Shown here piece after piece: positions 25,204-63,886 of a stretch of 64,000 nt of DNA (its first letter is position 1; every line of letters begins with the position of its first letter). The translations under genes were made by a program, and so were the position numbers. Below the pieces are notes generated by a model. The model made no database searches and was not told the origin of the DNA. It worked only from the letters and a program-made list of their open reading frames with translations. The stretch spans positions 62,945,554 through 63,009,553 of the forward strand of contig OX485803.1 of NCBI GenBank assembly GCA_950295325.1, in the 5' to 3' direction. The stretch comes from Polytrichum commune. Lineage: Eukaryota; Streptophyta; Polytrichopsida; Polytrichales; Polytrichaceae.

Positions 25204-25208
25204 CCACC

Positions 25209-29023: not shown

Positions 29024-29815
29024 CTAGGCTACCACATACACCAAGCACATCTATGGCCAATGCACAAGTAGGGGACAACAACGCACCACAGCTAGCACCC
29101 CCAGGATTCCAGAATCCCCATTTTAGGAACTCTCCATCAAGTCTCCACAAAGGCCCATACCACCTACATGAATAGTATACACATAGCATACTCATGGACG
29201 ATACTCATACATCTACTATGTATTTCCTTCTTACATATAAATAAAGGATACCCAATTGTGCTCAAAATGGTCACACTAGGCGTAAGATCTCCCTTATACA
29301 CGATCAAATACAAAATTACACCCTCTACTAACCAAGCATACATTATAATAATTGCACTTCTCATCATGAAAACATACGCCCACACCAACCCCCCAACCCC
29401 ACAAAACATAATCCACACAAAGGTCTACATACATACTAACCCCCTCATCCCACACACCACAATACATCCAACAACACATACCCACACGACCATTCACCAT
29501 CATCAAAACTATAATACCATCCCAAACTCAAACAAAACAACACCTAAAAAGGAAGAGCTATTTTACACACTAAAAGAAATACTACAAACTCACCTATCGG
29601 GCACATCCATCACATCCACACTAAACCCACATACACCTCCACTACCTCACACCACCCTACCATTAAAACATCACCACATTGGATATAGCCACATAAACCG
29701 CCACAACATTACTTTAGTCAACTTCTACACAATAAGACATACGCACTTAAAACGCCCAACACTACACAAAACCTTTGCACAAATTGTTGACCTCCAAACA
29801 CTCATCCTAAAAGGT

Positions 29816-29842
29816 GGAGACATACAACTCAACCCGGGCCCA
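29816..29842 (+). other. 2A-like ribosome-skipping motif (GDIQLNPGP)
   Basis: In frame with ORF2, residues 217-225, preceded by the hydrophobic segment VDLQTLILKG. The known 2A signature is D-(V/I)-E-x-N-P-G-P; here the glutamate is glutamine and NPGP is complete. Known 2A sequences separate the chain between the final Gly and Pro. Activity here is an inference. Confidence 0.6.
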
Positions 29843-30211
29843 CTTTCATACATTTATAAAAATCCCCCTATAAAAAACACACAAGAAACAAAACCATACT
29901 CTATTAAAAATCCATCCGTATTCCAATACGCCCAACTAGTAAGCCTATCACCCATACACTTACCACAACACCCCCCTAACCCCATCAAATTAGGCCTAGG
30001 CCATTCACACCACAAACCAACCGCCCCAAAACCCTTACATCCAAACTCACAACATAACACCGTAATTATACATAGATACATAGCTAACATATGGGCATTA
30101 CCCTACTTACTCCAAAATCAACCACCACCCGCCATACAATCACATAACAAGAAACCACAATTAAGCATAAGCACACAATACCACAATCAAAAACATCTCC
30201 TCCTACAATGT

Positions 30212-30238
30212 GGAGATATACACCCTAACCCAAGACCT
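30212..30238 (+). other. Second, degenerate 2A-like motif (GDIHPNPRP)
   Basis: Residues 349-357 of the same frame, preceded by KHLLLQC. The essential Gly of NPGP is Arg here, explained by one G-to-A change (GGA to AGA). As it stands it should not work. Confidence 0.5.
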
Positions 30239-33200
30239 ATGCCTAACCTACTACAAAAATACCCCCCGGCTCACAAAAGACGACAACATACATATTTCCT
30301 ACTTGGTACGATCAAATTTCAACCCGAATATCAACACCTTGCCAAAACATTCAAACATTTTTTCCAAAATACACACCCCTTACACGAACAAATAACACTC
30401 TCACTCCCATACTTATACAACCACATACAAAAATACCATGCCCACCCCCCCTCACGAATCATATATGCAATAATAGTAACAATTAGCCCCTCTACTATAG
30501 CATGTAACTTGTACCTACAACAACAACCAACACATAACTGGACATCACAAATATTAGAAAAAATGACCAAACTATCTAACCCGCCGGAACGACACATAGA
30601 CACCCCACACCCATATACGCAATTTTGTAACATATTTAATGATACAATCAACCCCGCCAACACAATACACAAAAAATTATATGATTACATCCACTTACAT
30701 CCCGACTCACTTAGCATACAAAATTTACAGGAAGCATTCCCATACCTACCAAAGCAACTTATAACGGAAGCCTTAAGATACAACGAACCCATAAACGAAT
30801 ATACACATCCTAATCCACCCATACCCATCCCACCATCACCATCCGAACCAATCCCACTAACAAGTCTAGAAACATATGCCATAACATGGAATGCTTCTTC
30901 ACTTAACACCGTTATGTCATGTTTACAAGACTTAATTACAAAAGAACCCCCGTCAATCATCACCCTACAAGAAACCAAACTATCCGCCACAAAATCCACA
31001 AAACACATACAAAGATAACTTCCCCAATATAAACTTTTCTTCAATAATACACATAACATCACGAGAATCACACGCCAAAAAATAACCTATAGAGGTTTTG
31101 GAGGAGGTCTCCTACTCCTTGTACACATCAAACATGCATTCCCCGGTAACATCTCCAAAATACCCACTCCCGCAGCCATATCCCCTTTTCTCCAAATAAC
31201 ACGCATAGCCAACCAACCCCTACAACCTTGGCTCCTACTTAACTTATATATGCCCTCACATGAGGACGACCTACCTCTCATCCCCACCATCCAAAATACC
31301 ATTACGGACCAAATTAACACACACCCAAACCACACATATATCTTATGCGGAGACTTTAATAGGGACATTGCCCTAATAGGACGACAAAACGACCAACAAA
31401 TTACACCGCCACAAACAGAGGACTACCTATGGAGATCCTTCATACTCGACCTCGGACTGACATATATTCCAACAAATACAACATTATCTAGACAAGGGGG
31501 ATACAACTACACACAAAACAACTTAATTAACGGTTTTTTCATAAAAACCCTTGATAACAACCAATACTCCGCTACTACAAACCAACATACTCAGCTAAAC
31601 TCCGATCACATGCCCATCCAACTAAAAATTCCCCCTAACACACTCATCGCTAGAACACCAATTATAGCATCCGAACCACCACCAAGAATTCTCAACCTTA
31701 TCCCAAAGGAGAAAATTGAAGACTTCCACACCAAATTCTTTGAAACTAACTCAACTCAAATTGATGAGCTCATACTATTATTAAAACATAACCAACTAAC
31801 AAATGAACAATGGCAATTAGCATGTGACTCACTAAACACCCTCACCGACAACATCACCAACATCGTCTTAGAATCATGCAGTGCCCCACCCATTCCCACA
31901 TTGCCAAACCGAATTGCTAACCAAGGAGGCTATCTCCCAAAGAAGACACAAAAAACTGGAAACTACACTTATCCACCTACCACCTCATCCGGAAGGCAAT
32001 TTACACCATAAAAAACAACCCGAACTGGCGCACCCACCCCATTATTACCCAAGAAATACACAATCATATTCACACTAGCATACCTCCACCACCAAACCCC
32101 TCTCTCCCACACAACACATGGGTGAATGCCCTAGCTAAAATTGCAAAAGAAGCTAAGAACAAAGCCCGCAAAATCATCACCGACTACACCACCAAACAAA
32201 TTAAAAAAACCATATCAAAATATCAACAACTCTATGATAAAAGTCCCAATACTATCTACAGAAAAGTTTTTAAAAATACCGACACCCCCCACTCGATTGC
32301 CTCATATATAGGCACAACAACATTCTTACCAACCCAAAAGACATCGCACAAGAAATACATGCCCAACAATCAATCAGTAATAGACCAACTGTCCCAACCT
32401 GCCATTATCAACCAGACCACCCACAACAATGTTGTCAATGCATATGCGGAGTCAGACAATACCCGTGGCATGATCTGAATGGATATGCCCTGGAAAAAAG
32501 AGGCGAAGCATCAACTCCCATGCATACATACCTAGATCAAGGAACATATGACATATGCCTCAAAAATTTAACCAACGAGAAAATCCCTGGATCCGACAAA
32601 ATACCCAATGCCATATTAAAAAATATGCCACCCAGATTTCACACACTTCTATTGCTATTTTTTACTCACTGCTACAAACAAAAACAAATCCCCGCATCTT
32701 GGAAAACAAGCCTCACAAACTCTTATATAAAAAAGGCAACCCCCACCACCTTACTAACCATAGACTAATCGCACTCGCTAATACAATTTACAAACTATTT
32801 ATTAGTACACTTACAAGCATATTATCCACGTACGGAGAAAAATATCAAATCCTACACAACAACCAAGAAGGCTTTAGGGCTGAACGATGCACCACACGAC
32901 AATTACAAACCCTCATAGCGGCATTAGAAGATGTAAGACTTACTACTCAAGATATTTACATATTATACATCGATTTCAAAAACGCCTTCGGATCTATTGA
33001 TCATGCCAGACTTCTCGCCATTATAAAGGACCTAGGCTACCCACAAGACGATGTGGCCTTAGTAGGCAATATCTACTCACAATCCACTACCACCTTTAAC
33101 AGAGAACATTTTGATCAAACAAAACTCATACCCATACAACGTGGCACTATACAAGGTGACACCTTGAGTCCATACATTTTTATCATATTTATTGAACCAC

Positions 33201-34964
33201 TCCTACAATGGCTACAACGAGGTAACAATGGATACACCTTTCACACCTCTAATACAAAACTACGCTCTGCAGCCTACGCAGACGACCTGGCCGTAATAGC
33301 CAATAATTTGCCATTCCTCCAACTCCAACTAAATAAATTGGACAAATTCTGTGAGTGGGCAGGTATGGACCTCGGCATCCCAAAATGCGCAATCACGGAT
33401 TGCCCCAACAAAACAAAATTAAACCCCCAAGCCTTCAAAACACACATAAAAAATATCAACATAAACTTTAGAAATCAACCCATACCTATCCTAAGCCAAC
33501 ACGAGCCATATATTTATCTTGGAATTAATCTAGTCCCCTCACTATAATGGAAAACTCAAACACACATAACAACAACTAACCTAATCAAACAATGCAAGCT
33601 ACTAACCGCATGCCCAGCCACCATGAAACAAAAAATCCAAATGATTGACACAGTCATAAGAGTTGGCATCGCCTACAATTTCTACGCCGTTCCATATTCA
33701 CTCCCGCCATTAAGAAACTCGATAAACGAATAATCGCCCTACACAAAACTATATGCGGCTTACCGAAATGCATGTCCAATGCGGTCACACAGCTACCACA
33801 AGATATGTTCGGCACACAAGCCTTTTCACTCAAAAATGCATACCTTACATGTATAGGTGAACAACTTATTAATGCCCTCAATGACAAAGGGCGACTAAGA
33901 AAAATATATAATGAATTAACTAAACACATACTTGCCAAACATGGCGGATCCCTTAAACTACCACGCATATCCCGCCAAGATTGTATCCGATCACCAATTA
34001 CACGCACGTTATTCTTACTCAAAACAACTAGTGGCATTCACCTCAAGAGCCAACTCGAGAAATTTCCCCTCCTCCCCACACCCTTAGAAACCCAACGGAT
34101 GCACCAAGCACAAACCATACCAACACTAACTCCCACACTCTCCCTTAAATACCTACATAAATTCATCCTCCACAACATAACCGAACTCAAGCACATAACC
34201 CACCCCAACGGCACACATCTTATGACAAACGATGACTTCAAACATTACTATGGTACACTCACTAAAACAACACAAGCCGCCATAAAACAAGCCCGAACTC
34301 TTTTTTGCGAACCACCGTGTCATAACCCATGCCTAAATAATTGCCCAACACATACCCTATCAAACATCCTCAAAAACCCTTACAAAATACACAACCACCA
34401 CATAGACACACGATTAGAAAGACATAATGCACACCTACCCACACCTCCACCTCCGGAATACCCGAAGCCACCCTCGTATATACAAAACAACCACATACAA
34501 TATCCAATTCACTCTATAATAAATGACCGCCCCCACACCTACAAAGATAAACACAAAATTACCAAAAGGTATACATCCTACCTATGCCAATGGATACTCC
34601 CCCACGAAACCATATACAACAAGTGGCTTCCCCAAAAAGAATTGTTCCCATGTAACAACCAAAACACCATAAGCCATAACATTCTACTTCTAACACAATA
34701 TTCTACCCACAAACAAAATCAACACTTCACCAACATCTTAAAATCACACTTTAATGAAGAACAACTAAGAGACACTAGATACATCCCCCCCCCCCCCCCC
34801 CCCCACAAATTATAACCCTATGTCATGTTAATATCAACGAATGTAACCCAGATAATGACATCGCCTGCACTCAACACACCATCCAAAGCCAACATAGTGT
34901 AACACACATATACGACAATGATGGTCGTCACTTAATTACCATCCCCGAACAAAGACTACAATGG

Positions 34965-35737
34965 TTGTGGGAACAATACCAAAATGCATTACACATACCG
35001 CACAATCTCAAACCCCCCACACAATCATTCAAACAAGAAGTTGTATGGTTATACCAAAGGTACAAATACCGAATGCCCAAAAGTGACCCCCTCAAACTAT
35101 CACAATATACACTCCCAAATGCCATCATTAACCATATTATAGACTCCTTCCATATCACACATTCATATTTTTCATCACCCGTCACATGCCCTACCACGCT
35201 AAGACAATTCTCCTCCACTTTCTCCCGAGACAAAGTTTTCAGGTAAAGAGGAACGGCATTCCAACACAAATGGACAGGTAACGGGTATGCCCACCCACAT
35301 ACAGAAACACACATCCAACAAGCCCTTCACTGGGCAAGACTTGCAGCCCACAACAACCCCGACACAATTACAATCCTTATAACAACTGATCCAAATTGGT
35401 ATAAGAACCTTCACCCTCATGAAGGCCCTTTCCCGGACTCATACGTCATCACGCACTTTAAAGCAGACACCATTACATACGAAGAACCCACGATACCCCC
35501 AGAACTACAAATCGAACCTCGAATAGAAAGCCGTGACATTAGAATACTATGTATACACCACAAAACCACGTCCATCGGAACCACAAGATATGCATGTTGC
35601 ATGAACACTATCGGCAAATTTCTACAAATACCTACTATATTCAACACAACCGCACCACCCACACCAATGAACACCTCAGTAAACCGTAGTAAGAAATGGG
35701 CCCAACTCACATACCCGCCCCCCCCCCCCAACCCCTA
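34965..35737 (+). other. Unassigned ORF2 domain between RT and RNase H
   Basis: About 250 residues in one frame with one stop (35244). Conserved-looking stretches are YFSSPVTCPTTL, FSRDKVF, RGTAFQHKWTGNGYAHPH, IQQALHWARLAAHN, TITILITTDPNWYKN and DSYVITHFKADTITYEEP. The pattern of an SPxxC start, an FG..G-F element, then a Gly-rich loop, a helix and a hydrophobic strand ending in PxWY weakly recalls the phage/PCIF1-type adenine methyltransferase fold, but the NPP[FY] catalytic motif is absent. The domain identity is an inference. Confidence 0.35.
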
Positions 35738-37271
35738 ACCCATAATACCACTATTCCACCAATCATAAACCATGACATATGCCTACCCCTCAAATACCCA
35801 CCACAATATTGTTATTATACCGATGGGTCATTTATCCCACCCAAAGCAATAACCCAAGAACATTGGAGACGAGAAAAGGCAGGATATGGAATATACAACC
35901 CTTTTAAAAACCTTAAAATTTCAGAACGACTACCAGGACTCCAAAATATACTACGAGAGGAACTGATGGCTATCCACCACACCTTATGCCTCCTCACCAC
36001 CACATACCGAAATGAACCCGCGCACATTTTCACAGATTGTCTTAATGTTTTATACCTCATAAACACACAAACAAAACATCCAACCTCACACAATAGTCAC
36101 CTGGACAAGAAGATACTTGAATCAATTATTAAGATGTTACAATCCCGCACACAAACCACCACACTACATAAAGTCAAAGCCCACACGAATATTAGTGGCA
36201 ACTAGCAAGCGGACAAATTAGCCAAAATGGGATGTGAATTAGAACATAGAGATGCCCTAGCCACGTACGAATACGCACACCCCACGCCATACTACCTCCA
36301 AAAAGGTTGGTGGCACTCAATGCAAGATACACCAGATAAAGGCCCCATCCGGCACCTTGGCAAATACATCACTAAATACGACAGAAAACATAACCTAGCC
36401 CTCATAGCAACTCAAACACACCAACTACACAAATGGCTCGATAATAAAGATATTGACAAAACACTATCAAATGATTTTTGGAACAACCCGATTATCACAG
36501 ACAGACAAAAAACATGCCTAGTCAAATTCAGAACCGGACAATACATGGGACATGCTAGAAAACAACTTCGGAAGAAATGCATACCCCTCACATACGTGCC
36601 CCATATGCAACGCACAAGAAGCAGACACATGGTTATATGTACTCCTCAAATGTAAACAACAACACATTCACGCACTAATAACCAAAAGACATAACAAAGC
36701 CGTATGGGAAATACGCAAACTTCTCATCTCAAACAAAAAGACAATATACTACACACTCATGAATGCAGGTACATATAATGAGCTCCCCCAAGAAAACACA
36801 GTACCATCATGGTTACTTCCATGCACATGTACCACCCAAAGATGTCACTGCAACGTTAGGCTCAAACCTGACATATTATGCATACTAGGACACCCATATA
36901 AGTCCCCACCACCAGAAGCACCCACACCGGAAATTACAGTTCAATTCATAGAATTCACATAGTGTAATGATAGATTCTCCACTGAAACCATAAATCAAAA
37001 AATTACAAAATATCAACCACTCATAAATAATATTATCGCAAAGGGTTGGAACGTAGCCCCACTTATTGTATTAGCATCTGGTGCTAGAGCCACAACTCAC
37101 ATCCCCTCAATGAACGAACTTGAAACAAAGCTTAAACTTCCTACATCACAAATTAGGAACACATTCAAACAACTTAACATAATTACCATACAATACGCAC
37201 ACTCAATATTAATCCACAAAAGACGAATAGAAAATAGACAACCCATCACAGATCTACAAAATCATAATTAA

Positions 37272-37812
37272 AATTAGAGAGGGGTAGTGGTCAGACCACT
37301 AGTTATTAAGTTACCACCTATAGCTCAGAAAGGCGGGGAGTAGCCAGCTGGTTGGCATAACTTTCCTGCCTATGATTAATTCACTTGCAGCACCAAGTCA
37401 AAGTGTATTGCACTAACACGCTCAGACGGATTCAACGCGAATCGAACCCGGACCGTATTAATATAACACGCACGTCCTTATCCAACCAACCTTGGAACCA
37501 TGACTTGGCGACCAACTATACAACCAACCACCACTTATACTCCAAACAAATACACACGCTTCCCGTCTCAAACAAAGTAGCAAGACCCACAAAATTCTAA
37601 ATTAAAACCCATGCACCCTACACACACCCTTCCCCCCCCCCCCCCCCCCGGTTCAACCGGTTAAAACATCAGTTACTAACATAGTGTCTACTCCCTCCAA
37701 AGGGTGAAGTAGTATTACACCCAACACCACTACCCTGGGGTACGGCCACGGTTGTCCTACGAACAAACACTTTATTCACTCCGGTCCCTAGTAGGGACCG
37801 GAGTTCTTCTTC
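37272..37812 (+). other. LINE 3' untranslated region with terminal hairpin
   Basis: It contains an 18-base C run (37632-37649) and ends with a perfect 13-bp stem at 37778-37804 (ACTCCGGTCCCTA, one base, then its complement), followed by TTC repeats. The last 150 bp or so match the 3' half of the SINE at 46.3 kb. On the minus strand at about 37438-37490 lie a box-B-like GGTTCGATTC and an upstream TTGGTTGGATAAGG, which together resemble a tRNA-like promoter in antisense. Confidence 0.75.
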
Positions 37813-37824
37813 TGCTAAGCATCA
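37813..37824. repeat. LINE target-site duplication, right copy
   Basis: TGCTAAGCATCA, identical to 22702-22713, directly after the TTC tail. Confidence 0.85.
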
Positions 37825-40800
37825 TGTACTAATCACATGTCTCGTATCTAGGAGAATTAAATTGTTTGGAAAAGTCAACCATTTACAACCCATCTACCTT
37901 AGCCCTCAAGTGTAGCACCGTTTTATATATATATATATATATATATATTTTTTGGCAAGTCTACATTTTATGTAGAAATCGCCTATCTAAAAAGGCATCA
38001 CATTAACCCCTAACTTCCCAAGTAACCCATTTTGAGTAGATGGATGAATTCTTCCCTACGTTAACCCCACCTAACTCATTCATCCGCAATCAAGAAACTA
38101 TAAACATCAAGCCAACATGAATATCTACACATATATTGAAACGAGCCATGTAATTTGGAGATGATTAGAATGTGGAAAAAAATGTCGAAGTGGGAAGTGG
38201 TCATATTTTTGTTGTGTTGGGAGCTCATACATGTGAGGGTGTTGACTCCAATCACTGGTTGTCACTCCAATGCAAACTTTGCATGAACATCAATGATGTT
38301 ATTTTGGTAAAATTGATTTTTTGTGTTCATATAAAAACAACATTTGTGCTCACATGGACTATTCAATTTGACATTTTAACACTCTTTAATTTTCAAGGAA
38401 TTTCTTGCACATATGTGATTAGAAATATGGGCCAATTTATACACCCCAAATGCAAGGTGACTAGCTTCTTGTGATTTGCACATTTTGGCATGAGAATTTG
38501 TGAAGGTGCATCATTATTAAGTTGTTCCCCATGTAGTGGATAAGACAAGCATTATGCTCATTTTCCAAGGGAACTTGGTTGGACAAAGGTCTATTTTGAT
38601 GGATAAAACATGACATTTTCTTGTGCATGCCTTTCCTTTAGTAATTATAATGTTAAAGTACAAATGGTTATTCATGCCCAATATTTCCCTGTGAAATAGC
38701 TCATCTCCCATGTTTTAAGATCCTACGGTTAAATCCAATTAGAAAATATGTCCATGGAATCTCCACAACCAACATTGAGTGAAATGCACTCAAAACTACC
38801 CTTTCATGAGCTTGGGAAGTTAAGGGCCGGTTCACATGGGGTCGCAAGTCCCAACTTTTGAGCCTCATGAAACCATTAAAATATTTTTTTAATTATCATT
38901 AAAATTTGGACCTAGATTATTTTTATGCAAAATATCTGCGGGACTTGTGTAGAAAGTTGGGTCTAGCTTTTTGGTCGACCCAACTCTAAACATAAGGACC
39001 ACTTCGCACACGAGCCAAGAGCCGTGACCATGAAATTTTGAGAGCCCAAAAGAAAGTGTCCAAAGGGCGTTTCAACACACCCCCAAAATCATGTAGTGTG
39101 GTCACGGACCCTCAAGTGTAATGTGAAGTCATATGTGACCGGGCCCTCAACCAAATGCTATTTCAACGAACTTCTATTTATACGTTTCCTCACACATGAT
39201 AAAATAGAATAAATCAACGGTTGTGAGCATTCAAAGTGCCATGATCTCCCGGTTTTGTGTTACGCCTACCTCCAAGAGGTGGTTTTTGAAAATAATGCAA
39301 GTGACCATGAAACACGATCCATTCGATGCCATGTAGGAGTCTATGTAGACTTTACATCCATCTTGCATTCACATACTCCGTCGGTCCCTCAACTGTAGTG
39401 TGAAGTAGCAAACTTGGACTGGCTCCGCCTTTTCCACCAATGAGAGTGCTCGAAGCGTAATGGTCACGGGCTCTCAGTCTCGCGTGTGAAGTGGCCCTAA
39501 GTCCCAAGCCTCACCTCCAAACAATGTTGCCATGCCTTGTCATACTCGGGACTTAGGACTTGGGGGAGAGTCTTACTAAAATAAGGATATAAATAATACA
39601 TAAAATAGTATGCCAAAATGGGGTTGATTCCGCCTGTTGAGACGCGGCAGCTGTGGAAGGAGGCCCTTCAGGGGAGGGGAGCCGGGGTCCAACCTGACGC
39701 GTCACATGCTTCCGCCACCTGGCGCCTTCTGTATGGCTGATCAGGGGGTATTTCCTGCGTGGCCTTCCAAGTAGGCAATCCTTCGTGGCGTCCAAGAGCC
39801 TAACTTAGGCGTGGGAGGAGGCGAGCCTGGGACTGCAGTCAGGAACTTAGGGCCTTTTTGGAATCCCCAACCTTGAGGAATCTTCATTTTGGGCTAATTG
39901 TGGCAAAACAACACACTATACTAATTAATATTGTTGGCTCTGTCTGTGGGACAGAGACTATGCATCAACTTCTTCGTTTCAAGAGCAAATTTCCTAACCA
40001 CTTTGTGTTCACACTTGGACGTTACTTGTTCTTGTTATTTTGGTTCTTTATGTATTGTGTATGTTAACTATAGTTTTTATATATATATACAAGTGCTTCC
40101 TAAAATGCATTGAAAGAAATCTAGTTAACTATAGTTAATGTGGTAGTTCTTGATTATTTATTTTAAAAATTTCGGGTGATAAATGAGTAGCTTCAATCCT
40201 TGACCTGTATTTGAGAAGAAGGTGCACGAAATCCAAGAAAGGTTTGGTATAGTGAATAGCCATGGATTGGCGTGAGCAAAGTAATCAGCTACAATTGTAG
40301 TCTTTCATAGCAAAGGACAGAGCCTCACGGTTCTACCGTTTTCTTGTTTTTAGAGTCATATGGTGCCACTACTATGCCGCTATGGTAACTTTTGTAATGA
40401 CATTTCTTATGAATGAGTTTACAAGTATTGTCATCCCAACTTACTTTTAGTTCATCCACTTTTGGTTTGGTAGATCCTGCATTTTATCAATTTGTTTAAT
40501 GAAACAATGTCATGGGATGATTGAAAATTGGATGAAAAATCATTTAGTAAGTGACAACAATCACACTTTTTTAATGTGTAATACCAAAAAAAAATTACAA
40601 GGAAAGTCAAATGATGTTAGGTTTACATTTAGTGTTGGTGACGCTACACATGCAATTTACAACTGGCATTGAGCAAGACAAGTAGAATTGGTGACACTAT
40701 ACACAATATTTAGTGTATTTATGGGCTCACTCAGGTCTGTCAAGATGATTTTGGAACTTCTTAATTCGGGATTGGGGTGCTTTTGCTTTCAAATTTGTAA

Positions 40801-50260: not shown

Positions 50261-53200
50261 ATGGCACGCGCTCCAGCTAGTCTGCATACTGTATCCAGGT
50301 AAATCTAATTGAGTGATCTTCAGATGTTAAACCTCAACAAAACCCTGCTAGAAAGTCATGTTTACTTCTATTTAGTGGGAGAGGTTGCACAATACTTTGA
50401 AGTGGTAGATGAAGAACCAAACAAATTTTAAAACAAATTGCAATCAAGAGACACTCGTGTTGCTGGTTCTGGGAGGGTCAACAGGTTGCTGGAGGGACAA
50501 CCTCCAGCCAGACTTAGATGTCTCGTCAATGCTTGTCGATGCCATTTGCAACACCTTGGACACACTGTGAATCTTGGAGATGAAAGGCTGAGAGTCTTAA
50601 GTGACAAGTAAGTCATGGCTAGGAAGCTTGTCTTGTTTCACAAGAACCAAGAGGGACAGACATAATATCACGCCATATTCAGAGTCACACAGGGTAGGTG
50701 TTCGGATGTCCCGACTAAGGGTTATTTTGTTAATCCCGCAAAGTTACATGAAGTTGGAAGGTTCTACTGAACCGTGCATATTGAATGGACATGCAATAAG
50801 TGATGTGATGGTTGTCCCCCCCATAGATACTATCTAAATAATTTTCTTCTCTTGTTAAAGCATTCCAGTAGAAGTAAACCCTAGAAGGGTTTATGAGAGA
50901 GTGAACCTAAAGCATTTAAAGCTGATGCAGGTGATATGTGTTGGTCCTCTCAGCATAATTGATAGGTCAAGGTCTCAACTTTTTGCCACACTTTGGTGAT
51001 GTTTGTGTTCACAGTACAAGAAGTTTCTGGAGAGTAAGTGTTAGTGTGTGATTCTTTAGGTTGTAGAGATTTGCTGCAGCAGCAAAACATGCTGCTAAGC
51101 TTTTATTTCTGTGGTGCTGGTAATGTCTGTGCAGAACGTTGTGGCAGTTTGGTGCTGCAGCTAATTGCAGTGAAGAGCAACTGCTGCAACATGGGCAGGT
51201 GAGACCAAAGTATTCAGAGGCATGCAGCAATGTCTTTGAACGATCCTGCTGTGGTAGATACACAAGTTGTTGCAGTGAGCGGGTTTGGAAATTTAAACTG
51301 TTCTCTCAAAGTGAATAGGATCGTGTCCGTATCCAAGAAATGTGTAGAGAATTCTACCACGACGCGCATTTGCGATCAACTTACAGTCTTAAACAATAAC
51401 TAAATCAACAAGGAATATTTGTTGCCTTTCTGTAAGAAAATGAACAACAATAACTTTGGTCATGTGAGATTCTAAGATGCTGCTGCCCATCACTTAGTAA
51501 AGGGTATTGAAGAGCTTCAATGAGCTTGTCAATTTGAAAATGTAGTGTTAGTAATTGCTTTGGAATGCATCTTATGAGTTGACTTTGTAGTGAAAATTTC
51601 GTTCAATTTCTGAATGAAATATCTTCTTTTGCAGTTACCACTAATTTAGTCATAGAACTGATATGAAGTTCCAAGTTGGTGTTTGCAGGTGCCTAAGGCG
51701 TCACTGTATGGTAAGGTGGACCCTGTGTCTGTCTCATTTTCTCGAGGCAGCTTACATGGAGGAGCACACAGATTCTCAGCAATTGCACTGTCAATGCCTA
51801 CTATAAGGTGCTTTACCACTGCAGATAATTGTACATCTCGCATGTCTACGCACACACCATGATTCCAGGATTACTTTTCCATTTTTGTAATGTAATGGAT
51901 GTCAACAGAGCTTCCTGGGTTTGCCAATGCAATAGAATTCCACATTAAGGACGATATGCCTGCCTGCCTTTGCAATTAAATGGTTCAAAGAGCTTTGTTA
52001 TCTATCTGGGTTCTATGATGCAGGAGAGGCATGCATCCAAGGACAAGCAGCCGAGCTGTAGCTGAAACTTCAGAAACACGCCCTCCTAAGTCTGGTGGGT
52101 CAATTGTGACGGAGGATGGAGGAGGCCTTTCTGTTATGGATGAAGCACCTGGGTCTAGAGCAAATTATAGTGTTGATGCTGAGGGTGAGAGTGCCTACAA
52201 TGTGACGTTTGATAACGGAAGTAAACCTGGTTTCACTGTAGTTGGGGTTGAAGGAATGGACCAAGATAATCTTCTCATGGATGTGACGACGAGCTTCTTT
52301 GAAATGGGCATCAGGTTGGACAAACATGTACTTAATCCATTTCAGATACGTGTTGTTCCTAATGAGGCAGTATTGGGCATGCCCATGACTCTCTTAGCTG
52401 GAAATGTTTATTCTGTAGCTGCCTTCATTGAATGTGGTTCACTGTAGCTTCACGAGGCACTGGATTCTGTCGCTTTTGTTCTCTTCCTGTTTTCTCAATA
52501 GTTCTCCTTTTTGTGTTTATTTATCCTCATTCCTTCGTTTCAAACCTCTATAAGTGTACTTTTCCTGTAACTTGTTGCCTCTGCCTGAGCAGTGTGAAGA
52601 GTGCGCGAGTTTTATCAAAGAATAATCGCGTTGTGGACGAGTTTGTTGTAATGAAAACTGAAACCAAGACGGCTGTAAGCGAGAATGAGTGGCTTTTTAT
52701 CAAAGAAAAAATTATAGCCAAACTTAAACGAAGAAGTGCTCTTAATACTCCTGACGGTGACCCCCAGCTTCTGGAACAGGCAAGTCGCTTGCTATTATCC
52801 TTGTCTTAAGTGGTAGATAGTTACTTGTATTCAATAAACTCCTTTTGCTGCTTAGGAAGGAGTTTGTGGAGAGGATGGATTTGGCATGATTATGTTCATT
52901 ATGTAGTGCAGCATGTGCAGGATTGGCATTGAGTTTATGGCAGGAATGCAGGTAGAGGGCTATTAGTAGGAGAGCTTATAAGAAGGGTGACATGGAGTAA
53001 CTCATTGGACCCATTGAACTGAGCAGGTGACATTCTTGACACAAACGTTGGACAAAGCAGTTTGTGCAGATAGCCAAGAAGATGTGCTTGAGGCAGTAAG
53101 TATGAGCTCTTATCCTTATGTGTTCCATGCTTGGTTGGTTCTGGCTGTTATATCTGATGTCTTCTTTAGTTGCTTACCATTTTTTAAGGAAAAGACTACA

Positions 53201-56200
53201 AAATTGCAAAATATGTTCAGGAGAGAGTTAACTTAGAGGATGTCCTTGTGTTCTTTATTTCAATTTCTAGTTCTGGGGTTTTTTGAGAAAGATGCCTCAT
53301 GAAGACAGAGTGTTGCTGAGCTTTACCATCTTGAAGTTAGAACGTCTGCCTTTCTGCTGTGATTGTGTTTTGGAACTCAAAATATGATAAAACCCTACAT
53401 CCATGTAACCTGTTGTAGTTTGCTTTTGCAAATTAAAGAGTCTTCCTCACTGCCAGATTGTGTATGCAATCATCTATTAAAAGTCAAGTGCTTTTTGAAT
53501 GGCAGTATCGAATCAGCCAAAGAGAATGAGTAGTCAATGAGAGTCATTTCTGTCCTTTGCGCTCCATTTTAGGCATGTTATTTATGGAATGGCATGTTAA
53601 CCAGATTGCACAAACTGTGTTCACATGAGTATATGGGTTCTGTTAATACAGGCAACTTTGCTGCAAAAAGGATTCAATGAGCTGCGTCAGAGAGAAGATC
53701 CTCGTAAGAGAGCGGAGTTGCTGCGTTATATTGAAAAGATGGACCAGAAGAAGGTGTGAGCTTTGTTGTGGTCAATCTATTCTGATGTCTCCACTTGTGA
53801 AAGTGACGAGGTCAACATAAAGCTCATGAAACAAAGTGGATTGTTATCATATGATATGAAGTTTGTGCATATATCATGAAGTTAATACAGTCTGATTAGT
53901 GCTGAATCAACAATGTGTTCTTTGAAAGCTTTATGTAATCTCAATATAATTGCGACTTGTAATGAGTGAGGCAGAAGACCAACAAAGGCTCTGCATTTGT
54001 CTTTATTCCTTCTTGACATGAAGGCTTAAGAACATGTATGAGGTCATAGGCGTGTAACATGATTTGTGCATAACATAGATCACAATCAGTGATCCAGAGT
54101 GAATTTCTCTTCTGCCTTCAGTTTTTTGGTCTAACACAAGACTATTTGCAGATGACAGCAGTTGTTCGACTATTCTACTTGTATTCATCTCTTCTAAATG
54201 TGGCAGACGAGGCCCACAGTCATCGACAACGTCGCGAGATGGTAGGCTGTTATTCATATGAATCTTTAGTTGGCCATCTGTTGTCATTTGCCACAAGGTT
54301 GTACCATCACGGTGGTAGTCTTGGCGCCAAGGTTAATGAAGATGACGCCAAAGTAACTTAGTGAAAGTATATGCCTACAATGGACGTGCCTGTGATGAAC
54401 TTGGGTGGTGGTGGTTATGAATGATTACTTGCAATCTAGTGGGGAGATTCTAACTTTGTCAGTGCAGGTGTTTGCCAGCAGAAACGCTACACCACTATGG
54501 CCTGCTTCATTTGATCACACTTTGAGAACCTTCAAGGAGAAAAATGTGAAAGCTGCTGATCTTCAATCTTTGCTGAATAGGACCGAGGTAAGAGTGTGTG
54601 CTAAATGTGGTGGTAGATTTTGATGTACTTGTGAAGTAACAAAGTCATTTTTGTGGATTGATGGGTGTTGATTGTGTTTGATCGATCCAGTATTGGGTGT
54701 GTCCATGGCAGCGAACTAGGTTGCAACTTGTTGCTACCTTGCAGAATAGTCAATTTGATCACTTTCTGGAGCATCATATCTGAAAGCATGAAATAATCAC
54801 CAAGCTATGTCTGAGCCAGGACGAAGAAATGAGGGTATGGAGGAAAAATGGTCTTTGAAATAACTTTGTTGTAATGTTTGAAAATGTCAGTACAATCCAG
54901 TGTTTACAGCGCACCCTACAGAGGCTCGGCGTAGAGAGGTTCTAACATGCCTGCATCGCATCTTCCTTTTGTGCAATGATCGTGAGGTAATTTTTCCTTC
55001 TCCAACTTGCCATCAAGCCTGGGAGTCACTTCACTCTTGGATGTAGATTTCACCCGAGTTGGTTATTTGGAGTCTAAGTCTTGGAACATCTTGAAAGCTG
55101 CTGCCTGATTTTAGTGGACTTTGTAGCAAGCCTACCAGTTGATGCTAAGGTTTGTCAACTTGCTTCTCATTTGTGTTGTCATCCTGTCTCGTGTTCCTTT
55201 GAAAGGCGAATGTTTCTTATGTTCATTCAAGTCCTTCTATCCAGGTTCAATTCTAGTCATTACCACTTTGACCTTTTGGAAAGACTTATATTTTAGTTAT
55301 ACAGATTTTAGTATTCCCTGTATCAGTTGGGCACATTCATGTAAAACCCAGGTTATACTGATATCAATGTACGTGCAGGATCCAAGGCTTAGTCCAGCTC
55401 AGAAGGCCGAGGTGGAGGCTGAAGTGGAAGCTGAGGTTTGTGTGACTACCTTTTTCACTATACAGTTATCCAATTTGAAAATGTACAATTGTACAAATGC
55501 GAAGAAAAAAGCTAATTGGTACATGTACTGATGTCCAGATTGAGATACTTTGGAGGACAGATGAGATGAGGGCCACCAAACCTACCGTCCTGGAGGAGAT
55601 TGTGACTGGACTTGATTATTTTCGTTACTCTCTTTTCGAGGCTGTGTGCACCACATATCGATATGCTGAGAACTCTATCAATGTAAGTATTCAAGGTGTT
55701 GATTTTTAGTTTCATAAACTGTATGGAGATAAGAGGTCGGGCGTTTTTGACTGATTTCTCTTGACATTATTGCTCATGATCACAGGCTATCTATCCGAAT
55801 GAAGGTCTGGTTATACCAAGCTTCATCAAATTTGGTTCCTGGATTGGTGGTGATCGTGATGGTAATCCTTTTGGTGAGTACACCAACCTAAGTACCTGTT
55901 ACACATGTGTGCTTTTTTCTAGCTGCTGTCAAATGATTAAATTAAGGTCTTAATGCTTGGTAGTAGCTACGGGTGTGATAGTTGTTGGTTGGTTCCTCAC
56001 ATCTTTCCTTAAAACATGAGTGTTCATACATTTCTCAATTCATGACTTGGGTTGTGCTTTTATGCACAAGGATTTTCTGATCTGTTTGAAGGTAGTAAGA
56101 TACAAAATTCGTTACAATTGGTGGTCCCTGCCACTTGCACAGTTAAATTGCAAGATTGATTGATGTTTATAGCTGCATCTAGTCAGCATCCTCTTATTCA

Positions 56201-59200
56201 TGATCCATCTGAAACAAATGTCCAGAATTAGTGTTCTTGGAATGTAATTAGAAGTGAAGATCTTGACAAAACTCAGGCAATTTTCTCTTTTACCTCTAGA
56301 AAGGCCTGACTCTATGTATTCTGACATAACTGGAACATTGTTTTCATTGAGGCAGTGAAACCTGAAACAACAGAGATGGCTGCCCTGTTGGCGAGTCGCC
56401 TCGTCCTGGCGGAATATATTCGTCGTGTCCGTGCTTGTCAGGTAGAAGTCTGCAGATTATTGATTGTACCCAGATTATATGAATTGCACATGATGCTACT
56501 AAGACATCCTGAGAGAATAATTAATTAAGTTTTCCTTTTTTCCTTTTTGCATTCAAAAGTTGATGAACTTTTGGCCCAAGCCACAACATTTTTTCTTACG
56601 TTATCGTGTATCAGGGTCCAGATATTTCTGGAGATAGACATTAGCAAATGAAGAATAGTGATACAAATGCTCATCATGATTATAGTGTTGAGAATTTATA
56701 GACCCAAGTTGGGTGTTGTTTCACAAACAATTTACTTGTCTTGCAACATGGATTCACGAATCATATGTGCTTATGCAGGACACATTGACACACTCATTAC
56801 TCATTTGCAAAGTGTCAAAAGACCTGATAGACAGTCTTGAGAAGGACAAAAAAGTGATGGAGGAGATCCCAGGGATTAAATTTGACAGTTCGCTTTATGA
56901 ACAGGTAGTCAGTGTTTGAGTTGGCATGCTGCTTTGACAGGTGCAATGCTTGTTTTAGATTGTGTGCAGTAGTGGAATAATTTGAACCACCTCGTTTATG
57001 CCATTAGTAGAAAAATATTGCATGCCCTTTAGCGCAGTTTGCATTACATGCCTTTCTGAAGGAAAAATAATCCCGACTGTCTGAAGTTTTGTAAGGCATT
57101 CAACATTTCTTAATCATAGCCAAACAGTGAGGGAAGATGTTCCAAGTTCCTAGGGTGCCTTTGTATTGAAGGCTGATATTTTGAGAAACAATTGTTTACG
57201 CATCTCTATGCAGGAGCCATACAGATTGAAGTTGAGGGTTATGAGGCACCGACTTGAGCAAAACCTACGTAACGTGAATGCCCGCCTGCGGGAATTGGGA
57301 AAATTAGGCCAGCATGATGAAGTGCGTTACTAATTTGCCACTCTTGATTTACTCCAGTTCAGAATGATTGATACAATTAGGATAATCATGGCAACTCATT
57401 AACACCTCACATGATGCCAATGGCCCAAAAGTTTGTGATGTCATTTCACAAAGGAATAGATTTGATGCATGATGATTTCAGATAAATACAGAATCTGCAT
57501 CTTGCAACTTACTTGTTTCTAAGTGGTACTAGGGTTGTATGATGGTTTTGGATTAAAATTTAGCTTTGTCTCTTGAATTGTGAAATATTTAAGCATGATT
57601 TTGGCTTATTCCGAGTTGGATTGTTGATATGTCAACTGGGGTGACCCATGGATGGCAGTTGCTGATAGATATTGAGTTCAATATCGATGAGATAGCAGGT
57701 TTGGACCCAAAGAAGGATGCATATCTCAGTGAGAAGCAATTTCTACATGATCTGAGACTCATTGATGTGCGTGTTCTCAACACTACTGTTTTGGATATAA
57801 TATGTCTCCAATTAGTAGCTTGCAGGCATATCTGGTTATGAACCATCTGGTATATCAATTTGGTGAAGTCATCTAGAAAATTCATCCTGTGTGAGGGATT
57901 TGTTGAATAACATCCTCTACCAGAGCAGAGATATTGGCATGGTTAAGGAGGTTTAAGTCTGTTGTGAGATCTTATTGATAGCAGAAAATTAGGTGATGGT
58001 AAATCAACATAGGTGGACTAAGTCACATGAGTGGCGAGTCTCTTCTTTTCTGACCTTTTCAAGAATTTGCAGTCTTCTTTGAGAGCAAGTGGAGATGTTT
58101 GCTTGGCGGATAGGAGATTGAAGGACTTGATTCGACTGGCAGAAACTTTTGGCTTCCACTGTTGTTCTCTTGACGTCCGGCAGGAATCAACTGTCCATTC
58201 AGAGGTAAGCAAGCTTCTATCATCAACAAGTTTTAATTTTAGAAGTCATATGATTTGTAATGTTGACTAGAAGACCCCCTTTTAGTGGCAAGGTCCTCTT
58301 TTCGTTTGCATAGCTGGACAGGTTAATTTAATCATAATTTGGTTTTTTAGGAGTGTCTTTTCTTAGTTAGAATTCTCTTGTTGTGATTAAGTTGTATCTT
58401 CTGCATCAGAAGTATTAAGAGTAAGCTTAAACCTTGGTGGTTGGGTGTACCCTCCTCACACTACAGCAGTCCCTGCTGATGTTTTGAGGAGCTTCCAGAG
58501 AAGGAGGCTAATTTGCTCGAGTCAAAATAAACTGAGTCATTAATAGAAATGCTCTTATTGAAAAAAAGTATCTAAAATCAAAATGTGGAGCCTGCACCCG
58601 AGTCCCCTGTGATTGATGTCAACATTAGGTTTGTACTGTCAAAGTTGTTGTGATAGTCTATGTGTAGCTGAACTCTTTCAACTGCTAAGCTTCGCCTTTA
58701 AAATTTGATAGTGCATTCCATTTTCCAGCAGTAGGAACTGATGCTTGAGGATGCTTAGCGAAGTTGCTGGAGTTTGACTATATTTTAACCTACTATCTGA
58801 AAGACAGAATGGTCTTTACTTTTAGAAATTTCTCTCCATGAGAGTATGTCTTGTAGCTACTTGAATCAACTAGTTGTCTTTCAGAGGCACTCAGAATCGG
58901 ATGTGGGGTGTTGTAATACTGCAGGCAACAGATGAAATCATGCGGCTTCTAGGATTGACTGATAAGTACAGCTCTCTTTCTGAGGCAGAGCGGATGAAGT
59001 TACTTGCACACACAATTGCAACACCACCTCCTGTTGACAAGCTTGAGGTTTGTTTATTTTGTCTGAACAATCTTCATGAGCCCTGTAGTACATGAAGGTA
59101 TCTGGTATAATACAGTATTCATTTAGGAGCCAAATGTGATAGCAGCTCTTTTTACTTGTCAATGAACGTTTTATATTGCACTCAATTCCTGTACCGGCCT

Positions 59201-62200
59201 TGAGTAATTCAGGCATCACTATCTTAATAGCCAGATCTTTATTACCCTCTTGCAAAATTAGTTAGAATGAATCTGATTGGATAGAGTAGGTCCCTATACT
59301 CATATTATCAAATTTACTGTGATTTGATTTCAGAGCCTATTCGAGAAAATGTCAACAGGAACAAAGGAAGTGGTGGAGCTTTTTTTCTCATGTGCACGTA
59401 TCATGGACAATATCTCACACAACTCCATTGCCTCCTATGTTATTTCCATGACTCGCCAAGCATCTCATGTTATGGAGGTTTGTTTTACTTACTCGATGTC
59501 ATCAGCAAGAGGACCTTGTCTTTATTTATTTGTTTTACAACCTGTTCAACCACTGCAAGCTATACATTACAATATAGGTCATAGACAGTTGACAAGTTTC
59601 AAATTTGTATGGTTTGTCATTGATCTAGTGGTCAATCTCTATGGCCAGATGACAGTTAGTTGGGACTTTGGTGGGAGTATTGATGACTACTTTACTTCCT
59701 AAAGGACCAAAGGTTCATGGTTGAAATTGACCGATTCAATTGATCATATTGTGAAAAATTAATAGATCAGATGGGGCAAATTTCACTTTCTGAGAAGCAG
59801 TGCATGTTTTGGTCAAAAAGCAATTGAAATTGAACAAAAGTAAATGCCCTTTATGATGTACCCAAGATTGTTAAACCAACAATAGAGACCCAATCTGGGT
59901 GTCTTGGTCCTTTAGGGTTAATCAAGAATATGCCTCTGAGCTTTACTGTCTGGAGCAGGTATTATTTTTGGGATGGTTTTCATGTAAGAACTTATTGGAG
60001 AAGGAGGCATCTGGTGAATGGAAAGCAAGGCTCGTGGTTGCCCCTCTTTTTGAGACCATCCCAGATTTGGAGGTACTTTTGTGAAAAATGTTTGCCAGTC
60101 TACTTACGATTGGTACCTATGGTCCTTTTAGAGACCTAGCTATAGGAAAATTATAGTTCATATATTATCACAGGACTCAGGTGTGATTTAAGGAGGCAAG
60201 TCATTCGATGGGGATCAGTGCCTAGTTATCTTCTATCCTGGATTTTGTATACTGTGCTTATGTTTAACAGTTCAAGATGCTTGTGTTCATAGACATGTCA
60301 TTCTTGGCCCTGAATGTATAGCTTATGTAGTTCCTACAATTTTTTGGCTTGTAACTCTGATTGCTTATAGTTACTCATGAGATGAAACTCATGAACGGCC
60401 TGCAGAACATGCCAGAGGCTTTGGAATCGCTCTTTGGAGATGAGACTTACAAGGGTATTTTATTGGCCTCTGGTGGTATTCAGGTAGATATTATACCCTG
60501 TTAGCATCGTACACCCATGTTTCTTTTAAAAATTGAAAGCATGAGATTTGCCAGCACACTTGTCTTCTGATTGGTTAATAAGTGAATTGGTTCAAGGAGG
60601 TTGATGCTGAGATTCCCATCTTACTTTTTCAATCTTCATTTCCAGAAAGTGTGACAGACGACAAATGACATTTCTAATGCACCTGAGTGTGAATATTTGA
60701 GAGAATTATCCTACTTTAGATGATGTGGTGGGTCTTGGTTGTGGGATTTCTTTGATCCTTTACATCTGCTGTATAAAAGGATGTGGTGGTTCTTCCTTTG
60801 GTCGTTTGATTAGTTTCCGTTCTGTTCAGAATGCACTCTATCGAGACCTTCATGCTTTAACACTTATTTCAAAGGGCAATGTTTATTGCTTAAAGTTTCA
60901 GCCTTACTGGGAGCTGTATTCCAATCTAGAATCTCCTAGACCTTCTATGAAATCCATCTGTATTTACATTTGGATGAATTCAACAGTCAAGTAGATGAGC
61001 AAGTTGTAGTCTAGGTTTGACTAATTAGATGTGGCTTTACTTCGATGAGCTTCTCATAAATTAATTAATATAGTAGAGATTTATCTCATAAATCTGGGTG
61101 GGGATGGGAATCCAGGAGGTAATGCTTGGCTACTCAGATTCCTGCAAGGATGGAGGTATAACGGCAAGTGCATATAACCTTTACAAAGCTCAATGTGTGA
61201 TTCAAAAACTCACAAAGGAGGCAGGAATAAAGTCATGCATCTTCCATGGTCGGGGTGGCACTGTCGGCCGTGGAGCTGGCCCAACTCATGAGAGTATTCT
61301 TTCACAGGTATTTGTTAATGAAATATGTTGTGTTTAAAGTGAAGAAACTCACTATGCAACTCGTTCAGCTCACCTCTGCATCAATGCACCTACAGGTCGC
61401 TTCATGCTACCCATATTGAAAACAGGAATCCCATGCGAAACAAAAGATCATCTCATAGTACAATCTCAGTAAAATCGTGGAGTTTTCCAATTTTCATACA
61501 AACACAAAGTCAAATCTACCCATTTTGTAACTTACCACCTGCAAATGTATGTTCTTGAATCAAACTGTTCTAGTTTACTTGAGATGTGCTTATGGAGGAC
61601 TTTTCATTATTATTTTTGTTTAGATTTGAATTTCTTGTTGTTCTGTTCTGGCGTATGGCAGCCTCCAGGCAGTGTTGATGGACAAATAAAGTTCACAGAG
61701 CAAGGAGAAGTCATTACCTATCGCTACGGCAATGCTCAGACAGCTGCATATGAACTAACTGTATGTGATTGATTTACTGGAACCAATGGAGTGTGAACAT
61801 TTAGCATTCGTAGTTTTTTGGTTCAGATTTACTCTCTTGCTACTAGAATGGACAAGTGTCCATTTGTTTATTCTCTTGTATACGTGATAATGGGGTTAGA
61901 CAATTTGCCATAATGACCAGTGCGTATGAAACATCAGTGCCTGTACTTGTATAGTATTTAGACTTAGAGTTGAACCAGGGCTTCACTTTTGTAATTTCTG
62001 GGTCATTCAGGAAAAGAGTGTGTAGAACATTCATACTGATTGCTGTCCCCTTGATCGAACTGGTAGGTTGGCATTACCGGGCTCATGAAGGCAAGTCACC
62101 CTGCCACACGGTCTCCTGATGGCCTCTATGAAAAGGTGAGCATCTTCTATTTAAATGTCTTGAAATAGCACATACTGGTCAGGGACCTAGTGATGTTAAA

Positions 62201-63886
62201 TGTACTAGTTTGATACATCTGAACTATATGGTCCGTCTATAAGTAATCTCAGGCAATGTCTGATAGTAAGCAGCTTTGCTAATGCTAAGTAGGTCGTGAT
62301 CAATGCTTACTTTAAATGTCATTTCCGGCCTTTGTGTCAAGGAGCAACAGTCCTTATCATCTAGTCTCTCTGAAAGCAAATTTTGTTTGGTCAAATATAA
62401 GTGATGATGCCTCCATTCATGTGTGTACCAGTTTTTCCCTATCATGGAAGAGTTGGCAACAGCTGCAGAAAGGTCATACCGTGATCTGACAGACGAAACA
62501 GAGGGGTTTTATGATTATTTCTACGAATCAACTGTAGTCAATGAGATAAGTCTCATCAACATTGGCAGTCGTCCTGCTCGCCGCAAGGCAACAGTGCGAG
62601 ATAAATCCTCTTTACGTGCCATTCCTTGGGTGTTTGGCTGGGCCCAGGTATATCTTCCAACCAGTTACCCAATGTAGCTTGTAAAAATTGAAAAATAGTG
62701 GATAACACCTATGTTTGCCAACACTAGCATGAATTATAGAGTCCGGTTGCCTGCATGCTACTGCCTCAACAAAGAGGTGGACTCTTTCTCACTGCTGTAA
62801 CAGGTGCAAATCTTTCTAACAATCGCAAGTAGGGCAACTTGATTGCCCATTGTTCCTCCCTACTCATTGTGTTGTGTTGTTTGTGGGCAACAGTCAAGGC
62901 ATACTCTTCCAGCATGGTATGGTGTGGGGAGTGGCATCACATCATATACACAGGATGACCCAAAAAGGATTCAGGAGGTCCAACGTATGTATAAAGAGTG
63001 GCCCTTCTTCCGGACATTTCTTTCAAATGTCCAGGTATCTAATATTTCTCACCTCAACTTCATAGCTGAAGTAGACAACTCTGCATTGAACGTCAACTGT
63101 GACATGGATAGCCATTCGGGTTCATGAAAGCTTAATAATTGATGGGCTTACAGAGGTTGACTGGTTTCCAACACACAGGCATTGGGCTAATTAGCTGATA
63201 CCTCTCGCAAGTATGTCACTTTGTGTCTTAAACTTCAAGATGGCGAACTGAATCTGTAAAAACTTTGGCTAGTTGGAAGAGGTAGGACAAACAAACTGTG
63301 TCTGGACATTCATGATTTAGAAACTTGGCATGCTTGTATGTGAAACAGATTGATAAAATGCTACTTCTACTTACCAGAGATACTTTCCCTAATCAACATT
63401 GGTTGTTGCTTGAACAGATGTCTTTGTTCAAAGCTTCAATGGAGATTGCTCAAGAATATGCACGCCTTTGTTTGTATGTGTCCCACAAAATTAACTTGTA
63501 TTTCCTGTAGTAATTACTTAGACTATATGGCGCTTTTGTGTACTGTTTCAACTTCACTGGGAAACTCAATTTTTGTTTTAGAAAATATTGTCTTCCATCC
63601 TGCAACATGACAAAGTGCAGGCAGTAATGTTAGTTTGTTTTCTAGTTTCCCTGTTGACAACGACTTAGAGGGACGTCCTTCTACCACTATACAAGTTTCC
63701 AGATGTCCTAGAATGAAGTCTCCAAGGTATAGCTGATAGATAAATTTTGAATTTTGTGAGTATGAAGTTTGCAAATTTTCTTACATTCGTTTTTTTATCT
63801 GGTGAATCATTGAATACAGAAATCGCATCACTCAGAAGTTGGTGTTTGATCTAGTGTCACAAGAATATTTCCTCACCAGGGATCAG
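50261..63886 (+). CDS. Phosphoenolpyruvate carboxylase with N-terminal ACT domain (3' end outside window)
   Basis: I joined 31 exons in phase, giving 1188 residues so far: 50261-50298, 50449-50607, 51135-51198, 51689-51807, 52024-52314, 52593-52779, 53027-53095, 53652-53753, 54152-54241, 54468-54587, 54891-54986, 55379-55435, 55539-55682, 55786-55873, 56356-56441, 56779-56904, 57214-57321, 57659-57766, 58073-58204, 58925-59047, 59334-59477, 59959-60072, 60406-60483, 61116-61307, 61662-61760, 62067-62135, 62432-62647, 62894-63034, 63418-63473, 63646-63726, 63820-63886. PEPC makes oxaloacetate from phosphoenolpyruvate and bicarbonate. Residues 1-126 are Arg/Ser/Ala-rich, possibly a transit peptide; about 195-268 form an ACT domain ([35 protein letters not shown]). 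The PEPC part shows [12 protein letters not shown] (His421), [12 protein letters not shown] (529-540), [24 protein letters not shown] (924-934) and NIGSRPARR...[10 protein letters not shown] (1044-1071). These match bacterial PEPC more than plant-type PEPC. The last residues lie beyond the window. Confidence 0.93.
52780..52809 (+). other. GC-AG intron donor and read-through stop at the ACT/PEPC boundary
   Basis: Exon 6 ends CAG and the intron begins GCAAGT, a good GC-type donor. If the intron is kept, the frame adds nine codons (ASRLLLSLS) and stops at 52809. This is the only non-GT donor among the joins. Confidence 0.7.

Follow-up and report, generated by a model that had tools for sequence, protein, structure and literature searches.

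Two clades have been described in the plant PEP carboxylase (PEPC) family (PMC8566536). In a survey of 17 genomes, 90 plant-type and 19 bacterial-type genes were counted together with 70 that carry other PEPcase superfamily domains, and Table 1 of the same work assigns one gene of this last group to Marchantia, two to Anthoceros and four to Spirogloea (PMC8784020). ACT domains are presented as amino-acid-binding, regulatory modules with a conserved glycine between beta1 and alpha1 (PMC3173338). Plant ACR proteins are reported to be devoid of a recognisable catalytic domain (PMC6081435), and a precedent for partner contact is provided by the ACT protein ACR11, which binds Fd-GOGAT (PMC4944146). 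Literature searches, in which few subscription papers were covered, returned no fusion of an ACT domain to PEPC, in keeping with the supposition of the initial annotation that such a protein had not been described.

The gene considered here lies in a stretch of 64,000 nucleotides of the Polytrichum commune genome (408 Mb, 64 contigs), hereafter the window (C1:62945554-63009553), and its features are given in window positions on the + strand. The spliced model comprises 32 exons from 50261 to 64832, with every junction in phase and a single terminal stop, and predicts a protein of 1,212-1,224 aa in which a basic N-terminus is followed by an ACT-like domain and then by a complete PEPC with the C-terminus RNTG. 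The initial annotation had stopped at 63886, which is the end of exon 30, whereas the stop of the model is at 64832. The base model has 1,212 aa; the 1,224-aa version, which was the one scanned against Pfam, results if earlier acceptors are used for exons 18 and 21. The 31 introns measure 103-720 bases (median 333), and 25 of them are in phase 0. Other features of the window include a strongly A/C-rich + strand at 24000-38000 (GC skew of about -0.31 to -0.55 in 2 kb steps), a tandem repeat of a 24-base unit at 23969-24410 (~18 copies) and, at ~30.9-31.1 kb, a frame that by eye resembles a LINE-type endonuclease. Elsewhere in the genome, a nuclear fragment matching rbcL (C3:14137891-14138196; G000, L087) is probably a plastid insertion. 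A plastid rbcL (best PDB match 9chz_A, 1082.1 bits) and the bacterial-type PEPC described below mark the host as a streptophyte.

The positions of exons 1-6 were chosen by eye on the basis of open frames and splice signals, and the first four of these exons are weak. Exon 1 (50261..50298) holds a putative start codon and ends in phase 2, its coding score resting on 12 codons with controls of equal length absent. Exon 2 (50449..50607) would encode the basic N-terminal extension, although an alternative frame outscores by codon score the one used in the model; it is followed by exon 3 (51135..51198) and exon 4 (51689..51807). The codon scores of exons 2-4 exceed the 95% level of intron controls, these controls being the introns from which the background was also derived. 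The first 130 residues of the model have a pI of 10.7, and exons 1-4 could jointly encode a targeting sequence. The ACT-like domain is divided between exon 5 (52024..52314), which carries its first half (beta1-alpha1) and ends in phase 2, and exon 6 (52593..52779), which carries the second half, a linker and the first PEPC residues (LLEQ). The sole spacing between ACT and PEPC exons is intron 6 (52780..53026), a phase 0 intron of 247 bases with GC-AG borders (donor GCAAGT).

From exon 7 onwards the model was obtained by spliced alignment guided by a profile of 10 gammaproteobacterial PEPCs, and the entire PEPC chain could be threaded from exon 7 to the stop at 64832 with zero in-frame stops. 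Exons 7-10 occupy 53027-53095, 53652-53753, 54152-54241 and 54468-54587; exons 11-14, 54891-54986, 55379-55435, 55539-55682 and 55786-55873; and exons 15-17, 56356-56441, 56779-56904 and 57214-57321. Exon 18 lies at 57716-57766 (its acceptor may be 57692), exons 19-20 at 58073-58204 and 58925-59047, and exon 21 at 59346-59477 (acceptor more likely 59334). Then come exons 22-25 (59959-60072, 60406-60483, 61116-61307 and 61662-61760), exons 26-28 (62067-62135, 62432-62647 and 62894-63034) and exons 29-30 (63418-63473 and 63820-63886). Beyond the window end there follow, in L002 and with the numbering continued, exon 31 (64091-64195) and exon 32 (64713-64832).

The PEPC part is, judged by its sequence, of the gammaproteobacterial type and additional to the normal plant-type and bacterial-type set, a circumstance that the initial annotation had missed. 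It matches PF00311 (PEPcase) over residues 285-1224 with E 9.7e-275 and 914.4 bits (cut-off 22.4), and the NCBIfam model PRK00009 with 850.1 bits, above its cut-off of 815. Sixteen of the 17 E. coli PEPC positions checked are identical, among them H138, R396, K546, R581, R587, R699, R713, K773, R832 and N881, the exception being R438, which is replaced by P; under the catalytic and aspartate-site roles that we assume for these positions, the aspartate-site residues are retained. Identity is highest to L003 (48.6%), L075 (48.3%) and L009 (45.0%), against 33.8% to the bacterial-type PEPC (BTPC) of the same genome (L085), 31.2% and 31.6% to its plant-type PEPCs and 31.5% to the E. coli enzyme. 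A quickly built tree with 66 rows places the fusion PEPC in a clade with 12 gammaproteobacterial rows (SH-aLRT 100), a support that concerns membership of the clade and not the order inside it, the tree program flagging ACTPEPC as a long branch. The sample is tilted towards relatives of the query, because patterns taken from this query served to find the bacterial rows: 80 of 103 relatives were kept, 63 had a frame holding the HGRGG motif, and 61 of more than 850 aa entered the tree and the extension test described below. The bacterial-like character that the initial annotation had given to this PEPC is thus borne out by the identity to L003 and by the clade.

A search of the genome for the PEPcase family gave 29 exon matches, which fall at this locus and at three others. 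Two of these, C1:33.14 Mb and C2:66.46 Mb, hold plant-type PEPCs with a QNTG end; the third, C1:71.48 Mb (L085), which begins MTDTTDDIAEEISFQ and which we take to resemble Arabidopsis PPC4, is the usual plant BTPC. Identity of the fusion PEPC as the usual BTPC was rejected, that role belonging to L085, which stands apart in the tree and is 33.8% identical; identity as a plant-type PEPC was likewise rejected on its RNTG instead of QNTG end, the 31.2% and 31.6% identities and the tree placement. As the initial annotation had noticed, the phosphorylation motif of plant-type PEPC is not seen in the model, where the pattern S-[IVL]-D occurs at three places, none in the context of that motif. The plant-type PEPC L083 (179-400) has near its N-terminus the stretch KMASINAQMR, which resembles the plant PEPC phosphorylation motif; a similar stretch was not seen in the portion of L084 that was read.

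The region encoded by exons 5 and 6 resembles ACT domains, most closely those of plant ACR9/ACR10, at scores below Pfam cut-offs. PF24931 (ACT_ACR9_3rd) matched it with E 2e-5 and 25 bits in the cut-out region and with E 6.8e-4 and 20.1 bits in the full protein, below the curated cut-off of 27 bits. Of the combination of PF01842 with PF00311 in one protein, through which the initial annotation had proposed to recognise the fusion, the second member was found, with its 914.4 bits; PF01842 is absent from the families reported by the Pfam scan for either the cut-out region or the full protein, and it is the comparison with ACR domains that points to ACT. In exon-wise searches of the genome, PF01842 (18 matches), PF24931 (7) and PF24914 (8) did not recover this locus, which is to be expected to some degree because an intron cuts the domain. 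The ACT profile gave no significant ACT match against PDB sequences, the best being EF-G (E 0.06) and GTP pyrophosphokinase (E 0.094). When the ACT profile was compared with a profile of four ACR ACT domains from this genome (set A2, which leaves out the L098_1 and L099 stretches and the C6 ACR gene), the probability was 96.6% and the score 53.0, whereas 60 column shuffles scored no higher than 18.2 and 74 slices of PEPC no higher than 14.9; the fusion ACT sequence alone reached 81.8% and a score of 31.9. The beta1-alpha1 glycine, invariant in the ACR domains, is N in the fusion.

Two unlinked places of the genome, L088 (reverse strand) and L089, encode small unfused ACT-like relatives of this domain, with aligned identities of 36% and 37% and with M at the same glycine position. 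In the fusion and in both paralogues an identical Ser codon, AG|T, is split by a phase-2 intron, and 37 columns are invariant across the three family members. The matches of the paralogues to ACR10_N (0.016 and 1.6e-4) and to ACT_4 (0.012 and 0.025) all stay under the cut-offs, and the top Pfam row for one of them is an unrelated lipase family (0.01). No clear attached enzyme was seen by eye in the flanks up- and downstream of either.

The presence of ACT-like domain and PEPC in one uninterrupted open frame, already claimed in the initial annotation for exons 5-6 and exon 7 onwards, is confirmed at the sequence level by a spliced model that stays in phase with no internal stop, and a single mRNA probably runs across the fusion. 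Under the competing reading, the fusion is a modelling artefact and two genes lie side by side: one for the ACT protein, with its end at 52809, and one for the PEPC, which begins farther downstream. The exon 6-7 junction does rely on a GC donor, and read-through past it meets a stop at 52807-52809, much as the paralogues terminate shortly past their second ACT helix. Against this, just 217 bases would separate the stop at 52809 from exon 7, and the second gene would be without a beginning: in the frame of exon 7 a stop ends at 53017, the interval from there to the exon is devoid of ATG, and the earliest Met downstream is residue 53 counted from the exon 7 start, so that initiation there would lose 52 conserved residues. 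The PEPC therefore needs an upstream exon, since exon 7 is without a start of its own and the first Met comes too late. The GC donor of exon 6 is, moreover, of full consensus and the sole candidate scoring at least 5/6 among the 128 stop-free phase-0 GT/GC sites between 51500 and 52986 (a test restricted to phase 0 and to ~1.5 kb upstream of exon 7), and the six residues before it rank 3 of 128 for fit to the PEPC profile. The coding score over the final 17 codons of exon 6 is 0.35 bits per codon, roughly the 99% level of the intron controls, and the PRK00009 match, which likewise argues against two genes, already starts within exon 6, at residue 3 of QLLEQVTFL. We therefore regard the two-gene reading as very improbable and treat the locus as one gene.

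With respect to the origin of the fusion, among the 61 homologue rows the stop-to-stop extension was at most 83 residues and no ACT profile match exceeded the inclusion threshold, the nearest approach coming from L011 (E 0.057, best domain E 0.84). The earliest matched query residue was 72, in the second ACT helix (the ACT part spanning ~1-93), in eight of eight named relatives and also among the matches listed from 229 of 369 genomes. Arrival of the ACT domain from bacteria together with the PEPC was rejected, as the bacterial relatives in the sets examined are without an ACT part, and because of this the simplest account is that a transferred PEPC was joined to a host ACT gene. We infer both the direction and the age of the PEPC transfer. 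A scan of viral contigs gave seven pattern matches and zero relatives.

In the proposed working, an ACR-like ACT domain would be fused straight onto the first conserved PEPC helix within one gene, and the enzyme, whose catalytic residues are complete, would most likely be active and anaplerotic. The classical aspartate/malate feedback site would still work alongside the ACT-like unit, which would dimerise or bind a partner and in this way alter the oligomer sensitivity or the assembly of the PEPC. Our confidence is moderate in this arrangement, in which an active anaplerotic enzyme keeps its ordinary feedback and the ACT-like domain mediates dimerisation or the binding of a partner. Dimerisation or partner contact, by which feedback would be tuned, is favoured because the glycine of the ligand loop is missing and the aspartate site is kept, and because that site is retained the ACT-like domain does not replace it. 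The initial annotation had the ACT module bind an amino acid; direct binding of this kind, relayed as allosteric control to the PEPC, is a doubtful possibility. It draws on the amino-acid-binding, regulatory character described for ACT domains, on the similarity of the fusion domain to ACR domains and on oxaloacetate, the product of PEPC, being a precursor of aspartate. The beta1-alpha1 glycine matters for ACT ligand binding, however, and its replacement by N in the fusion and by M in both paralogues, the persistence of the classical aspartate site and the sub-cut-off, ACR-like nature of the match leave amino-acid binding possible but not favoured. A further reading makes the ACT-like part a passive remnant of the gene that received the PEPC, acting as linker or targeting sequence only. 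The basic N-terminus (pI 10.7 over 130 residues), the loss of the glycine and the existence of paralogues that are short ACT proteins would all fit; the ACT frame is nevertheless intact and the 37 columns invariant among three family members argue against it, so that we consider this reading improbable. For the preferred dimerisation or partner-binding role, an analogy is offered by the N-terminal phosphorylation segment of plant-type PEPC, which sits on the same side of the enzyme and to which the ACT-like domain may be comparable.

How much carbon passes into the metabolism of aspartate, malate and 2-oxoglutarate is set by PEPC. Should the fused protein indeed be produced, carbon entry would be tied to another signal, and the fusion would offer one protein for testing a carbon-nitrogen link. 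Were a further PEPC clade to carry such a regulatory-looking fused domain, this would also show that different control modules have come to occupy the N-terminal position. As a tentative extension, streptophytes may hold a third, gammaproteobacteria-derived PEPC lineage fused to an ACR-type ACT domain and possibly plastid-targeted, through which the supply of oxaloacetate would depend directly on the status of nitrogen or amino acids; relatives may be among the genes that one survey put apart as carrying other PEPcase superfamily domains, for example one in Marchantia.

Compared with plant-type PEPC, the fusion belongs to a common family but differs by its RNTG instead of QNTG end and by the phosphorylation motif, which is not seen in it. 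With plant BTPC it has in common both the PEPC fold family and the RNTG end, although it is only 33.8% identical to L085 and distant from it in the tree. The likeness to gammaproteobacterial PEPC of the PRK00009 type (L003, L075) covers the whole PEPC chain; the relatives examined are without the ACT part, however, and the fusion gene has 31 introns. Finally, the likeness to plant ACR proteins (ACR9/ACR10, ACR11) consists of profile similarity to the ACR9/10 domains, and the ACR9-like gene L094 has, by our reading, an intron one base off the homologous place of the fusion intron; whereas ACR proteins are described without a catalytic domain, the fusion joins one ACT unit to an enzyme.
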